This document shows, one piece after another, positions 913 to 6,089 of a stretch of 6,173 bases of DNA. Numbering within the stretch: position 1 is the first letter of the stretch; every line of letters starts with the position of its first letter. The DNA lies in contig JAJYEK010000204.1 in assembly GCA_021785795.1 (NCBI GenBank), forward strand, positions 1 to 6,173, read 5' to 3'. The stretch comes from Pseudomonadota bacterium (GTDB lineage: Bacteria; Pseudomonadota; Gammaproteobacteria; Acidiferrobacterales; UBA6901). The notes under the pieces are model-generated. The model saw only the letters and a program-made list of their open reading frames with translations. It ran no database searches and was not told where the DNA came from. Position numbers and translations under genes: made by a program.

Positions 913-921
913 TGCTATACT
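913..921 (+). promoter_or_regulatory. TGCTATACT extended -10 promoter for the SSB-like/ssb pair
   Basis: TGCTATACT is an extended -10 (TG plus TATACT) 30 nt upstream of the ATG at 952, and the predicted start point is near 928. No good -35 sits 16-18 bp upstream, where the sequence is GC-rich coding DNA. It is an exact copy of the octamer seen upstream of four other rightward units. Confidence 0.6.
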
Positions 922-951
922 GAAAAGAGGCCAACAGTAGGAGAGCGTACG

Positions 952-1269
952 ATGAATGCTTCATTCTACGCCGCCCAGGTCATCGGGTATGTTGGTCACG
1001 TGCGGCAACGAGCCGCATCTGGGGGATCGGTGTACGCCGTATCGGTGTGCATCACAGTACCCCCTACCAATGGCTCAGAATCCCCAACCCACGAATGGGT
1101 TGAGGGGATTCTGAGCGGGGCCCTGGCAGCAGCCGTGGGCCCGCACCTGAGTCCTGGGCGGCTCATATATCTCGACGGACCGCTTACTCACAAGCGGTAC
1201 GTCAAAAAAGACGGGACTCCGGGAGTCGCAGACCGAATCAAGGTCTGCAACTTCCGGTTCCTGGATTAA
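952..1269 (+). CDS. Divergent SSB-like OB-fold protein (105 aa)
   Basis: Read by eye against the ssb gene just downstream, this protein follows the SSB OB-fold almost throughout. An opening strand (AQVIGYVGHVR) matches [11 protein letters not shown] central strand (YAVSVCITV) matches [19 protein letters not shown] matches [33 protein letters not shown] matches the [22 protein letters not shown] block, and the final strand (DRIKVCNFRFLD) matches [10 protein letters not shown]. The DNA-contacting Trp of the EW motif is kept (W49). The third SSB tryptophan is replaced by Tyr (Y83), and the first is missing. It stops at the end of the fold, with no linker and no acidic tip, so it should not recruit SSB-tail partners. 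AGGAG at 939-943 is 8 nt before ATG, and ssb follows after 21 nt. It could also be a small relative of OB-fold proteins encoded by integrative elements. Confidence 0.75.
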   Translation: MNASFYAAQVIGYVGHVRQRAASGGSVYAVSVCITVPPTNGSESPTHEWVEGILSGALAAAVGPHLSPGRLIYLDGPLTHKRYVKKDGTPGVADRIKVCNFRFLD

Positions 1270-1290
1270 CACAACCTGAAGGAGAGAGAC

Positions 1291-1737
1291 ATGGCAGCAG
1301 TCAATAAAGTCATCCTGATCGGCAACCTTGGCCGCGATCCGGAAACCAAGTACATGCCGAGTGGTGACGCGATGGTCAATCTGTCGCTGGCCACCACGGA
1401 AAACTGGAAGGACAAGAGTGGCGAAAAGCAGGAGCGCACCGAGTGGCACCGCGTGGTGATCTTCGGCAAATTGGCCGAAGTTGCGGGCGAGTACCTGAAG
1501 AAAGGCTCGACCGTCTACTTTGAAGGCAGTCTGCGCACCCGCAAGTGGACCAACAAGGAAGGCCAGGATCAGTACACCACCGAAATCGTTGCCGACAAGA
1601 TGCAAATGCTTGGCGGACGGTCTGGTGGCGGCGAGGAGACCTCCTCTGTTGAAAAGCCGAAGGCCAGCGGGAAAACCGCCGGGAGAAAGGCCGCTCCCGC
1701 TCCGGAGCCCGACGATCTGTCGGACGTGCCTTTCTGA
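1291..1737 (+). CDS. ssb: Single-stranded DNA-binding protein SSB
   Basis: This is a canonical bacterial SSB that coats single-stranded DNA during replication, repair and, on mobile elements, conjugative entry. It has 148 aa. The OB-fold spans about residues 4-108, from [15 protein letters not shown] to MQMLGGR. The three DNA-stacking tryptophans of E. coli SSB have counterparts at W39, W52 and W86, with F58 for Phe60. A low-complexity Gly/Ser/Ala/Pro/Lys linker (about 110-138) leads to an acidic tip, DDLSDVPF, which retains the terminal Pro-Phe bound by partner proteins. It is shorter than the 178-aa E. coli protein because of the short linker. GAAGGAG at 1278-1284 lies 6 nt before ATG. It is probably cotranscribed with the SSB-like gene and ends at an intrinsic terminator. 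The sequence looks betaproteobacterial, but whether it is a chromosomal or an element-borne copy cannot be settled here. Confidence 0.97.
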
Positions 1738-1741
1738 TTTC

Positions 1742-1772
1742 AACGCCGGTCATACTGACCGGCGTTTTTTTT
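1742..1772 (+). terminator. Intrinsic terminator after ssb
   Basis: A perfect 11-bp inverted repeat (AACGCCGGTCA, loop TAC, TGACCGGCGTT) runs into eight T at 1765-1772, starting 4 nt after the ssb stop. This is a textbook Rho-independent terminator. Confidence 0.95.
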
Positions 1773-2563: not shown

Positions 2564-2580
2564 GCATAGATGCCAGCCTA
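2561..2580. other. Convergent gene junction with short dyads
   Basis: The two stop codons (TAG at 2561-2563 on plus, TAG at 2580-2578 on minus) lie inside an inverted repeat, TAGGC...GCCTA. An alternative tighter hairpin, GGCAT-AG-ATGCC, sits at 2563-2574. There is no T tract on either strand, so intrinsic termination here is weak at best. Confidence 0.35.
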
Positions 2581-3045
2581 GAAGGGCCAATCCACCCCGT
2601 CGACCCGCGACAAACCAGCCGGCCACTCTCCCGCGGTGAGCGCATCGATCAGGAATTGCAGCGCTATTCGTGGCGTGCCCGGTAGCGCGTCTAGCGCAGG
2701 GCCAATCTGCCTGCCCCTGAAATCCCGCCATCTGATTTTTGCGGGCGCGAAGCCTTCAAGCCAGAGCATGTAATGAGGCGGGCCGCCGGCTTCGTGAATT
2801 ATGGGTTTCGGGTGCCGATCCGCCCTGAGCAACGGGGTGAAGTCAAACGGAAATTCGTGCCCTGCGGTTGCTGCCAGTTGGTCCGCCCGAGCAGTTAGCG
2901 GAACGCCCGGGATGCGCAGCCAGTATTGCAGGTCAGCGTCGCACAGGAACGAATACTGCAGTGCCGGGTTGCGTCGAATACGGGCGGCAGCCGCGGGCTG
3001 CTCGTCCGCTTCTGGCAGCATGTCTTCAGGGGCTCTATCTGTCAT
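2578..3045 (-). CDS. Hypothetical protein, last gene of the minus-strand operon (155 aa)
   Basis: I do not recognise this protein. ATG 3045-3043 overlaps the stop of the upstream gene by 4 nt (ATGA). The Shine-Dalgarno is weak (GGA close to the start), so translational coupling is expected. The acidic, Ala/Pro/Glu-rich first 25 residues look disordered. The body has many aromatics (YSFLCDADLQYWLRIPG, FPFDFTPLL, HYMLWLEGFAP). Then comes a basic block, IRWRDFRGRQIGPALDALPG, with a probable helix RIALQFLIDALTAGEWP, and the protein ends VDGVDWPF. There is no signal peptide, membrane segment or recognised catalytic motif. A longer plus-strand frame overlaps the 5' half of this gene and runs on into the genes upstream, but it lacks the matching ribosome binding site and stop/start overlaps seen on the minus strand. 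Confidence 0.75.
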   Translation of the reverse strand: MTDRAPEDMLPEADEQPAAAARIRRNPALQYSFLCDADLQYWLRIPGVPLTARADQLAATAGHEFPFDFTPLLRADRHPKPIIHEAGGPPHYMLWLEGFAPAKIRWRDFRGRQIGPALDALPGTPRIALQFLIDALTAGEWPAGLSRVDGVDWPF

Positions 3046-3422
3046 TCGTCCAGCTTAGCACATTTTTCCGTGGCCGACTTGAGTGCCTTGCGGATGCCTT
3101 CGCTGACATTGCCGTCACCCAACCTGACAGCGATTGCAAGGCTTTCGGTATCAAGATAGACATTTACACGTTTCCCGCCTTCCATCTTGATCGGGCGGCC
3201 AGCCGTTCCAAGTGCGGCGGAGACTTTCCGACCGTCCAGGTTGCGAACAGATCCTGCGTTGACCTGAATATAGCCGCCGGTAGCTTTGATGCGCACAAGG
3301 GCGCCAGTATCGGTTTCATTCCGCGTGACGGTGCCCAAAGGTGTCCAGTTTTCAGGGAGAGAGTTGGTGTAGAGCCGCCAGTTACCGTACTGATCGACGG
3401 TGATGCGGTCACGGTTTGTCAT
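3042..3422 (-). CDS. Two-part protein with C-terminal ribbon-helix-helix-like domain (126 aa)
   Basis: The C-terminal part looks like a ribbon-helix-helix DNA-binding domain. A basic beta-strand (GKRVNVYL, residues 83-90) is followed by helix A (about 92-101, TESLAIAVRL), a Gly-containing turn (LGDGNVS) and helix B (about 106-118, VSEGIRKALKSAT). The GNVSEGIRKAL pattern is common in small RHH-type proteins. The first 75 residues form a separate beta-rich module with TGGYIQVNAGSVRNLDGRKV. The start ATG at 3422 overlaps the previous gene by 14 nt, with AAGGGG at 3435-3430 and a 7-nt spacer. The protein may autoregulate the operon, since RHH proteins often bind direct repeats and such repeats lie at the operon promoter; this is inference. 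An antitoxin role is possible, but no obvious toxin partner is seen. Confidence 0.78.
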   Translation of the reverse strand: MTNRDRITVDQYGNWRLYTNSLPENWTPLGTVTRNETDTGALVRIKATGGYIQVNAGSVRNLDGRKVSAALGTAGRPIKMEGGKRVNVYLDTESLAIAVRLGDGNVSEGIRKALKSATEKCAKLDE

Positions 3423-3711
3423 GGTCTTGCCCCTTGCACGTGGGTTTCATCTTTAGCGATGCGACAAGACGGACAATATCAGCCTCAAACTGATCGCGCC
3501 CAGCAACGCCGGACGCGGGGTTATTGCAATCCAGGGAATACCGTGCGTGCGGCATGTTGTGTTCTTTGTATGCAGCAATAATTCTGTTGTTCTCGAAGTC
3601 GCGCCGCTCTGGCGAGTACACGACCGTCCCGGTCGCTGTTTGTACGACATGCAGTCCGGTATCGACCCGATTTACTTCGATTGCACCGCTAGTGTAAATT
3701 CGCATGCTCAT
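3409..3711 (-). CDS. Small hypothetical protein (100 aa)
   Basis: No named family is recognised. ATG 3711 has AAGGAG at 3725-3720 with an 8-nt spacer, and this site lies inside the last codons of the upstream gene. The two genes are separated by only 2 nt, so translation is probably coupled. An in-frame ATG two codons later is possible but spaced less well. The N-terminus is a beta-rich module (MRIYTSGAIEVNRVDTGLHVVQTATGTVVYSPE). It is followed by KEHNMPHARYSL, a Pro/Gly linker (NNPASGVAG) and a helical part (RDQFEADIVRLVASLK). The tail is basic and hydrophilic. The protein lacks membrane segments and a signal peptide. The N-terminal module loosely resembles that of the next gene in charge pattern, but I cannot show homology by eye. 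Confidence 0.75.
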   Translation of the reverse strand: MSMRIYTSGAIEVNRVDTGLHVVQTATGTVVYSPERRDFENNRIIAAYKEHNMPHARYSLDCNNPASGVAGRDQFEADIVRLVASLKMKPTCKGQDHDKP

Positions 3712-3713
3712 GA

Positions 3714-3914
3714 TTAAATCTCCTTGATCGATTTCCGATCGACTTCGGTGACGCTGATTTCGCCATCCTTGACCGGTGCGACTTCGCAGCAGGCGGCATA
3801 GTCGGCGTATCCGGCGTCGCGTGCCATCGCGTTAAGTGCGTCGGCTTCGGTCTCGCCTTCATAGTCCCCGAGGATGGCGCCAGAGATGGTGTTTTCGATG
3901 CGATAGGTAGTCAT
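3714..3914 (-). CDS. Small acidic hypothetical protein, first gene of the minus-strand operon (66 aa)
   Basis: The start is ATG 3914-3912: GGAG at 3924-3921 is 6 nt upstream. The longer open frame reaching back to 4067 would run through the promoter and has no ribosome binding site. The protein is acidic (many Asp and Glu) and compact. It has a beta-like opening TYRIENTISGAILGDYEGE, then a helix EADALNAMARDAGYADYAACC, then a beta-like end GEISVTEVDR. Similar short proteins with an 'EADALNAMARDAGY'-type helix recur in accessory DNA as I recall, but without a known function. It is 2 nt from the next gene, and its last codons (Lys-Glu) double as that gene's Shine-Dalgarno. An anti-defence or DNA-mimic role would suit its size and charge but is speculation. 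Confidence 0.72.
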   Translation of the reverse strand: MTTYRIENTISGAILGDYEGETEADALNAMARDAGYADYAACCEVAPVKDGEISVTEVDRKSIKEI

Positions 3915-3977
3915 TTTTCGCTCCAGCCCCTGATCCCCGAGGCGCGGTGGGTTGCGTTGTTGCTCCCCTTGATTTGT

Positions 3978-4005
3978 ATTATACACACAATTTATTTTTG
4001 TGCAA
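3978..4005 (-). promoter_or_regulatory. Promoter of the minus-strand operon
   Basis: On the minus strand, TTGCAC (4005-4000) is followed after 16 bp by a perfect TATAAT (3983-3978). Transcription would start near 3971, giving a leader of about 57 nt before ATG 3914. The surroundings are markedly AT-rich compared with the flanking genes. Confidence 0.65.
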
Positions 4006-4016
4006 GTGTTTTGTGC
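3996..4016. repeat. Direct repeat TTTTGTGC, 13-bp period, at the operon promoter
   Basis: TTTTGTGC occurs at 3996-4003 and 4009-4016, covering the -35 of the minus-strand promoter. A related ATTGTGG lies at 4022-4028. It is a candidate operator, possibly for the RHH-like protein encoded by the operon. Confidence 0.4.
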
Positions 4017-4046
4017 GCATATATTGTGGTTGAGTACTGCGTGCAA

Positions 4047-4075
4047 TAGACCAAATGCGAAGCGCATGCTATACT
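4047..4075 (+). promoter_or_regulatory. TGCTATACT promoter of the barrel/transglycosylase pair
   Basis: TAGACC (4047-4052), a 17-bp spacer and TATACT (4070-4075) with an upstream TG give a good extended -10 promoter. It starts transcription near 4082, 25 nt before the ATG. Between the hexamers lies a dyad, ATGCG-AAG-CGCAT (4055-4067), where a repressor could block RNA polymerase. Confidence 0.65.
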
Positions 4076-4106: not shown

Positions 4107-4949
4107 ATGAATCCATCCCGCATCGCCCTCGCCATCGCCGTCGCGTCCGCAGCGCTGGCTCTTTCGGGCGCCGCACGCGCTGACTCGCTCGGTGACATTA
4201 TGGCGTCCAACAACGAGGTCGGCATTGCGTCGATCAGCCAGAACATCAACTATTCCGAGCTGGACAGCCTGCAGTCGTTTGGCGGCCCGAGCCTGGACAG
4301 CGAGCAGGGCAGCCCGGGCGGCTATGCGTTCACCGTGTCGGTTGACAAGGACCTGTGGAGCACCAACAACTATCTCGCGCTGGGCTATTCCAGCACGTCC
4401 GGGACCACGAATTACACCGGTGGCGTCATGTCCGGTTCCGGCACATATACCCCATTGTCGGCGATTTCCGGAGCGCGCACCTCCGATTACTATGCCCGTG
4501 TCGGCACAACCTTCATTCCCGGAGACCACACGATGGTCACCCCGTATCTGGAATACGGCAACCACACCTGGGATCGGAATGTGGGCCAGAGCACGTCCTT
4601 CGGCTACGCAGAAACCTACACGCACGATTATGCCGGCGCCGGCATGCTGCTGCAGTTCGCGCCGGTTGACAAGCTGGTGCTGACCGCAGACTTGTTCATG
4701 GGCACGATGCTGAACGCCAGTATTTCGGCCGCATCCTTGGGCACTCAGAGCATGACGGATCCGAACATGCTTACCCGTATCGGCGTCGGACTCGACTATC
4801 GCCTGTGGCACGACATCCACCTCACGCTCGGCTTCGACCAGGTGCAGTACTCGTACAGCGGTTCTGCGGTGAGCTCCACCGGGTTCCTGGAGCCGCCCAG
4901 CAATACGACGCTGCAGGTGACGTCGATCGGGCTGGCCTACGGCTTCTGA
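4107..4949 (+). CDS. Outer-membrane beta-barrel protein (280 aa)
   Basis: A typical Sec signal peptide opens the protein: basic Arg5, a hydrophobic Ala/Leu core, then Ala-Arg-Ala at 23-25, with cleavage expected before Asp26. The mature 255 residues show repeated stretches of alternating polar and hydrophobic residues with aromatic girdles, such as NYLALGYSSTSG, VTPYLEYGNHTW, KLVLTADLFMG, TRIGVGLDYRLW and HLTLGFDQVQYSY. The last strand, LQVTSIGLAYGF, ends in Phe, the signal recognised by the BAM complex. About 8-10 strands can be counted, and there are no cysteines. The family is not recognised beyond a generic small barrel. TGAGG at 4095-4099 sits 7 nt before ATG. The lytic transglycosylase gene starts 2 nt after the stop, so the two are probably made together, perhaps for transfer-apparatus or envelope remodelling. 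Confidence 0.85.
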   Translation: MNPSRIALAIAVASAALALSGAARADSLGDIMASNNEVGIASISQNINYSELDSLQSFGGPSLDSEQGSPGGYAFTVSVDKDLWSTNNYLALGYSSTSGTTNYTGGVMSGSGTYTPLSAISGARTSDYYARVGTTFIPGDHTMVTPYLEYGNHTWDRNVGQSTSFGYAETYTHDYAGAGMLLQFAPVDKLVLTADLFMGTMLNASISAASLGTQSMTDPNMLTRIGVGLDYRLWHDIHLTLGFDQVQYSYSGSAVSSTGFLEPPSNTTLQVTSIGLAYGF

Positions 4950-5548: not shown

Positions 5549-5573
5549 TCGACAAATGCGCCTGTGCTATACT
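5545..5573 (+). promoter_or_regulatory. TGCTATACT promoter of the 124-aa gene
   Basis: TTGATC (5545-5550), overlapping the transglycosylase stop, is followed after 17 bp by TATACT (5568-5573) with an upstream TG. This is the best-formed of the single-octamer promoters. An inverted repeat ATACTT/AAGTAT (5569-5574 and 5581-5586) spans the -10 and the expected start point near 5580. Confidence 0.65.
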
Positions 5574-6069: not shown

Positions 6070-6089
6070 TGCTATACTCGCGCTATACT
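6070..6089 (+). promoter_or_regulatory. Second tandem GCTATACT promoter element, 11-bp spacing
   Basis: TGCTATACT (6070-6078) and GCTATACT (6082-6089) place two TATACT hexamers exactly 11 bp apart, as at 1992-2008. The three-base spacer (CGC here, GCT there) differs, and both elements are preceded by TATG. No good -35 is seen. Transcription from the downstream copy would start near 6096. Confidence 0.6.

Follow-up and report, generated by a model that had tools for sequence, protein, structure and literature searches.

Why should a gene for a tail-less relative of the single-stranded DNA-binding protein SSB lie directly before an ordinary ssb gene? The question is raised by contig JAJYEK010000204.1 of a gammaproteobacterium (assembly GCA_021785795.1), analyzed over its 6,173 nt (the window hereafter; 58% G+C), in which the following two open reading frames (ORFs) were found.

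952..1269, plus strand: 105-aa divergent, tail-less SSB-type OB-fold protein (intact ORF, ATG start)
1291..1737, plus strand: canonical ssb, 148 aa, with OB domain, linker and DDLSDVPF tip (Pfam SSB, 5.7e-42)

Both ORFs are on the plus strand and are spaced by 21 nt, the distance given in an earlier note on this DNA, made from the letters alone, according to which the 105-aa protein could be aligned with most of the SSB OB-fold. Pfam, hhalign and a 146-row SSB profile all bear this out, and the view of the protein as a distant, divergent, tail-less SSB-type OB protein paired with ssb is supported; the mixed oligomers with SSB, competition for single strands or protection of incoming strands that the note also put forward are possible roles. 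The protein is real and belongs to a known kind, of which it is a rarely met form; its role is a prediction, and its novelty is the position, directly 5' of ssb, unusual for a tail-less SSB relative. Established are its homology to SSB, the missing tail, the order of the two genes, its conservation in one further sequence and the lack of a recent origin from the neighbour.

Homology was monitored with family profiles, structures and profiles built for the purpose. The Pfam SSB family (PF00436) matches the 105-aa protein at E=5.6e-4, residues 11-103 aligning on profile positions 7-103 of 104; the score of 20.4 bits falls short of the curated cut-off of 26 bits. With E allowed up to 1, Pfam gives three matches, namely SSB, V4R and Phage_holin_3_1. 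TIGR00621 matches at E=1.1e-4 (22.6 bits, below the cut-off of this family too), and the top sequence match in PDB is an SSB (E=0.0097). Profile-profile comparison (hhalign), a check proposed in the earlier note, returned SSB with P=96.5% over 101 columns, the OB domain being homologous over its full length. A profile was built from 151 distinct SSB sequences, the 105-aa protein not among them; on it the protein scores 24.9 bits, the best of 1000 shuffles 4.9 bits, and the next non-SSB ORF among 10,055 ORFs 7.0. Five rows of this profile owed their inclusion to matches with the 105-aa protein; upon their removal the score on the 146-row profile is 18.8 bits, and the best of the same 1000 shuffles scores 5.6. 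Glycines 12, 15, 24, 69, 76 and 88, as well as W49, are common to all 11 other rows of one alignment.

The entire OB domain aligns with canonical bacterial SSBs, from which the 105-aa protein is distinguished by the lack of linker and acidic tip, by non-aromatic residues at two positions which we take to be W40 and F60, and by a score below the Pfam cut-off. The chain stops at the last strand, and the loss of linker and tip stands as first described. Residues W39, W52, W86 and F58 of the neighbouring SSB, presumably W40, W54, W88 and F60 in E. coli numbering, correspond to P38, W49, Y83 and S55, respectively. The EW motif is retained with W49, as the earlier note had it; the loss of two of three stacking tryptophans (W39 to P38, W86 to Y83) was also seen, but one of the two is now a tyrosine. 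Residues D16-P17 of the neighbouring SSB have no counterpart, and the turn after the first strand is shorter. The protein carries a net charge of +3 and has a basic stretch at residues 81-86. When modelled with SSB homologs in the alignment, the protein is predicted to adopt an SSB-type fold at a predicted local distance difference test score (pLDDT) of 88; 25 of the 27 rows of this alignment are SSBs, and the model is hence biased towards SSB.

The two neighbours are 22-23% identical. Among 146 SSB rows gathered independently of the 105-aa protein the neighbouring SSB ranks 12 (22.7 bits, the best 29.5); its rank of 145-146 among 391 rows is inflated by 120 rows from a profile search that included the 105-aa protein. 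In a tree of 36 sequences (LG+G4, ultrafast bootstrap), made from a short alignment, the 105-aa protein and its relative reside on a long branch outside canonical SSBs (support 90). With so short an alignment and so long a branch, all that can safely be concluded is that the 105-aa protein did not arise by recent copying of the adjoining ssb. A recent tandem duplication of the neighbouring ssb is ruled out by the low identity and by the tree; an old duplication of ssb may have been the source of the gene.

PriB is a tail-less SSB-fold protein of ~100 aa, a description that may also suit the 105-aa protein. The latter could thus be a PriB-like primosome factor, a dimer of tail-less OB subunits derived from SSB, carried by the element and serving replication restart or the element origin. 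We consider this very unlikely. The protein scores 3.2 bits on a profile of nine PriBs, vs. 24.9 on SSB, and does not match TIGR04418 (PriB) at E up to 1; in the tree all nine PriBs cluster in a separate clade (support 98), apart from the 105-aa pair. PriB identity by sequence was rejected on these grounds. Gene order differs as well, E. coli priB being located between rpsF and rpsR, the 105-aa gene between an ORF without family and ssb. Moreover, in the family holding the two best ssb matches of one search, eight of nine genomes encode their own PriB, scoring over the family cut-off.

A protein search in which 18 candidates were scored, and which distant relatives can escape, retrieved a single cluster related to the 105-aa protein, P0001 (95% identical, four member sequences, source lgn, two contigs, the longest of 5,710 bp). 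Cluster P0124 is an ssb with 87% identity to the window ssb along 99% of the latter, and agrees with P0001 in source, number of contigs and size of the longest one. The window SSB itself is listed on three contigs, the longest of 13,405 bp. Since these three data match, the pair probably recurs, with P0001 and P0124 together. Homologs that never adjoin ssb and bind no DNA would, according to the earlier note, speak against its reading; on adjacency to ssb the result leans towards the note, as far as the contig tally of these two clusters tells. P0001 differs from the 105-aa protein at five residues, four of which fall in a predicted loop (40, 41, 44 and 45) and one at position 60. Conservation between the two pairs is about equal, 100/105 residues being kept in the 105-aa protein and 103/109 in the SSB OB domain.

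Such conservation bears on the view that the 105-aa gene is a decaying or functionless ssb copy, to which absence of the tail, loss of two aromatic contacts and the very small number of relatives found would all lend themselves. The ORF is nevertheless intact, and is preceded by a ribosome-binding-site-like sequence; the changes between the two sequences are mostly confined to one predicted loop; and the protein is long separated in the tree, not a fresh copy. Decay is accordingly regarded as highly unlikely.

Beyond P0001, close relatives were missing in viral_contigs and genome_contigs, in a scan which detects close relatives only. No match was found at E 1e-6 in 369 sampled genomes, nor, at 1e-5, in two families represented by 2 and 9 genomes; ordinary SSBs do match the 105-aa protein, at weaker E. 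Weaker matches (E up to 0.01, <=34.1% identical) reside in 10 plasmid and 5 phage records. In the 7 of these 15 records which were examined, the matches are annotated as SSB (four), are hypothetical (two), or fall in a region without annotation (one), and no second SSB-like ORF was found.

The earlier note had called for a survey of ssb loci for the same pair. None of 160 other loci around ssb homologs features one, and tandem SSB-family genes were found in 2 of 369 genomes. Adding seven loci from annotated records, a second SSB-like ORF (threshold E of 1 on the local profile) occurs in 0 of 167 other loci; the ssb ORF itself was recognised at E 1e-10 in 166 of 168 sources, window included. 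The 369 genomes sample one class, and 354 have an SSB match over cut-off; tandems were checked in the 106 with two or more SSB matches, picked by eye (52 + 54). SSB relatives weaker than E 0.01 can be missed by this genome survey, and the 105-aa protein would be near the limit. Genomes G150 and G194 each have two distinct SSB-family ORFs, no more than 1 kb apart and on the same strand. The G150 proteins (C2, L205 2807-3833; 168 and 144 aa) are both tailed and are sisters in the tree (support 99), the tandem being probably a recent duplication. In G015, G154 and G325 a pair of close matches covers complementary parts of the profile and, to judge from the coordinates, appears to be a single gene that was split or frameshifted. 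Two SSB matches fall in one 228-aa frame in G144 (C32 236124-236702), possibly a two-OB SSB-like protein. Among the titles and abstract openings in short listings of open-licence papers, none describes a tail-less SSB gene adjoining ssb. A divergent extra SSB is known from the gonococcal genetic island; this SsbB has a short acidic C-terminus and is clustered with parA, parB and topB (PMC3334931), and passages of the same paper do not mention an adjoining second ssb.

The G194 pair (C51, L204 3057-3803; 112 and 117 aa) is found in a transfer module, in the order T2SSE-type ATPase, ORF without family, T4SS-DNA_transf (VirD4-type, 5.3e-93), 112-aa and 117-aa genes. A similar order was observed in G299 (C46), where TrbI, T2SSE and T4SS-DNA_transf are followed by a 112-aa OB gene (L211 3885-4223), the product of which is 52% identical to the first G194 OB protein (OB1). 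No match to G194 OB1 was found in a third genome of the order of G194 and G299, and no relative among plasmids. Tail-less SSB-like proteins do occur in transfer modules, and those of G194 and G299 are candidate transfer accessories; they are no close kin of the 105-aa protein.

Could the 105-aa protein be a transfer accessory, an OB protein partnering the relaxase or helicase of a conjugative element in the manner of OrfL/OrfM or HelP, and not a protector of single strands in general? Small OB proteins of mobile elements include OrfL/OrfM of ICESt3, Orf22/Orf23 of Tn916 and HelP of ICEBs1; ICESt3 and Tn916 encode two OB proteins each, and OrfL and OrfM, from one element, form a complex (PMC12614216). 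The location of the G194 and G299 genes, directly after a gene for a VirD4-type coupling protein, points the same way, as does the lytic transglycosylase (SLT) encoded in the window, a relative of which sits in the type IV secretion system (T4SS) region of conjugative plasmid pBYT5-5 (41.8% over 46%). On the other side, a scan of ten window ORFs (frames 3-395 and 3714-4067 excluded) revealed no recognisable transfer gene, be it for a relaxase, a coupling protein or a VirB protein. BLASTP gave no alignment of the 105-aa protein with G194 OB1 at E up to 100, and in the tree the G194/G299 OB1 proteins group with PriB (support 98), apart from the 105-aa protein. According to PMC3542172, HelP resembles Ssb in its fold but not significantly in sequence, unlike the 105-aa protein. 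Nor does the SLT gene settle the matter, because its relatives lie beside an EF-G-like gene as well as in a plasmid T4SS region: the two closest chromosomal relatives scanned (2 of 3 loci) both adjoin an EF-G-like gene. SLT matches at E 1e-14 occur in 64 of 399 genomes. On balance, a role as transfer accessory is unlikely.

How the two genes may be expressed is suggested by short signals around them.

913..921, plus strand: TGCTATACT, extended -10-like box, possible shared promoter (putative function; motif count)
939..943, plus strand: AGGAG, ribosome-binding-site-like, 8 nt 5' of the 105-aa ORF (read from the sequence)
1279..1284, plus strand: AAGGAG, ribosome-binding-site-like, 5' of ssb (read from the sequence)
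1742..1766, plus strand: intrinsic-terminator-like hairpin (11 pairs, 7 G-C) then T run, 3' of ssb (hairpin scan)
913-921, 2000-2008, 4067-4075, 5565-5573 and 6070-6078, plus strand: five copies of TGCTATACT, each upstream of a plus-strand ORF

The five TGCTATACT copies, all on the plus strand, compare to 0.02 expected in the window, and probably represent a shared extended -10 promoter box. One more motif, GCTATACT, is found at 6082. A consensus scan detected no -35/-10 promoter pair, either before the 105-aa ORF or between the two genes; the shared promoter of the earlier note is plausible as an extended -10-like box, not as a consensus pair. Terminator-like sites number 3 in the region 400-2200, both strands counted, vs. 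2.1 expected, and the one at 1742-1766 is the longest. From this arrangement, the 105-aa gene and ssb would make up a short operon, the 105-aa gene first, and are predicted to be co-transcribed.

An operon-like arrangement and an SSB-type predicted fold would also suit a subunit of a mixed SSB complex. The 105-aa protein would form hetero-oligomers with the neighbouring SSB, carrying fewer tips; in an RPA-like version, tail-less and tailed subunits would co-assemble in a two-component ssDNA-binding complex (ssDNA, single-stranded DNA), and the element would set the number of tips by their ratio. Identity to the neighbour of just 22-23% and the description of S. pneumoniae SsbA and SsbB as homotetramers each argue against the mixed complex, and both versions appear quite unlikely.

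The explanation we favour, tentatively and short of an even chance, is by analogy that of a co-expressed ssDNA protector which cannot recruit the partners of SSB. The 105-aa protein would form its own small oligomer and bind ssDNA more weakly than SSB, with one tryptophan and one tyrosine left at the three stacking positions and the basic stretch at 81-86. It would cover part of the single strands of the element without offering the tips that recruit repair and SOS proteins, and the tailed SSB encoded next door would provide recruitment where replication requires it. Binding in the absence of a tail has precedents: pneumococcal SsbB deprived of its last seven residues still maintains a ssDNA reservoir (PMC3128108), and Anabaena proteins with the OB fold alone bind ssDNA (PMC3976300). 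The competence SsbB of S. pneumoniae is, in addition, a second, shorter SSB besides the main one; unlike the 105-aa protein it has a short C-terminal domain (PMC3168475), and it is made during competence.

Four observations weigh against this explanation. The structural check suggested in the earlier note gave an SSB fold with SSB homologs in the alignment, but the model made from just the two rows of the protein itself failed (pLDDT 47.7). The residues at the positions of W40 and F60 in E. coli numbering are not aromatic, so that the protein could bind ssDNA weakly or no longer at all. A single further sequence cluster was found for the 105-aa protein. Finally, the ssb of cluster P0123 (source ena, contigs up to 171 kb) has an OB domain identical to that of the window SSB (109/109), and the 105-aa gene may be absent beside it, since ena is not listed for the P0001 cluster.

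The window may be part of a mobile element, to judge from its many ORFs without family. Named relatives noted for the window ssb are betaproteobacterial, the best from Sulfuriferula (88% over 76%). Two further stretches deserve mention.

2578-4067, minus strand: four small ORFs (155, 126, 100 and <=117 aa), each nearly touching the next or sharing a few bases with it
4107-4949: outer-membrane-protein-like product of 280 aa (sequence relatives)

Three of the four small ORFs have no convincing match in Pfam and two or more other libraries; the fourth (up to 117 aa), the start of which is uncertain, was outside the scan. The 280-aa product has relatives in 10 of 200 genomes sampled from the order of G001, and also on three plasmids of Acidithiobacillus caldus (27.3%); in the A. 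caldus SM-1 megaplasmid the relative is ~5.6 kb from an ssb, and the distance in the window is ~2.4 kb. Four other window proteins have no relatives in viral_contigs, three others no plasmid match, and PADLOC, Rfam and a repeat scan of the window gave nothing relevant.

It is an open question how mobile elements tune what their ssDNA recruits in the host. A naturally occurring pair of tail-less and tailed SSBs, if acting as proposed, would allow a direct test of such tuning of recruitment.
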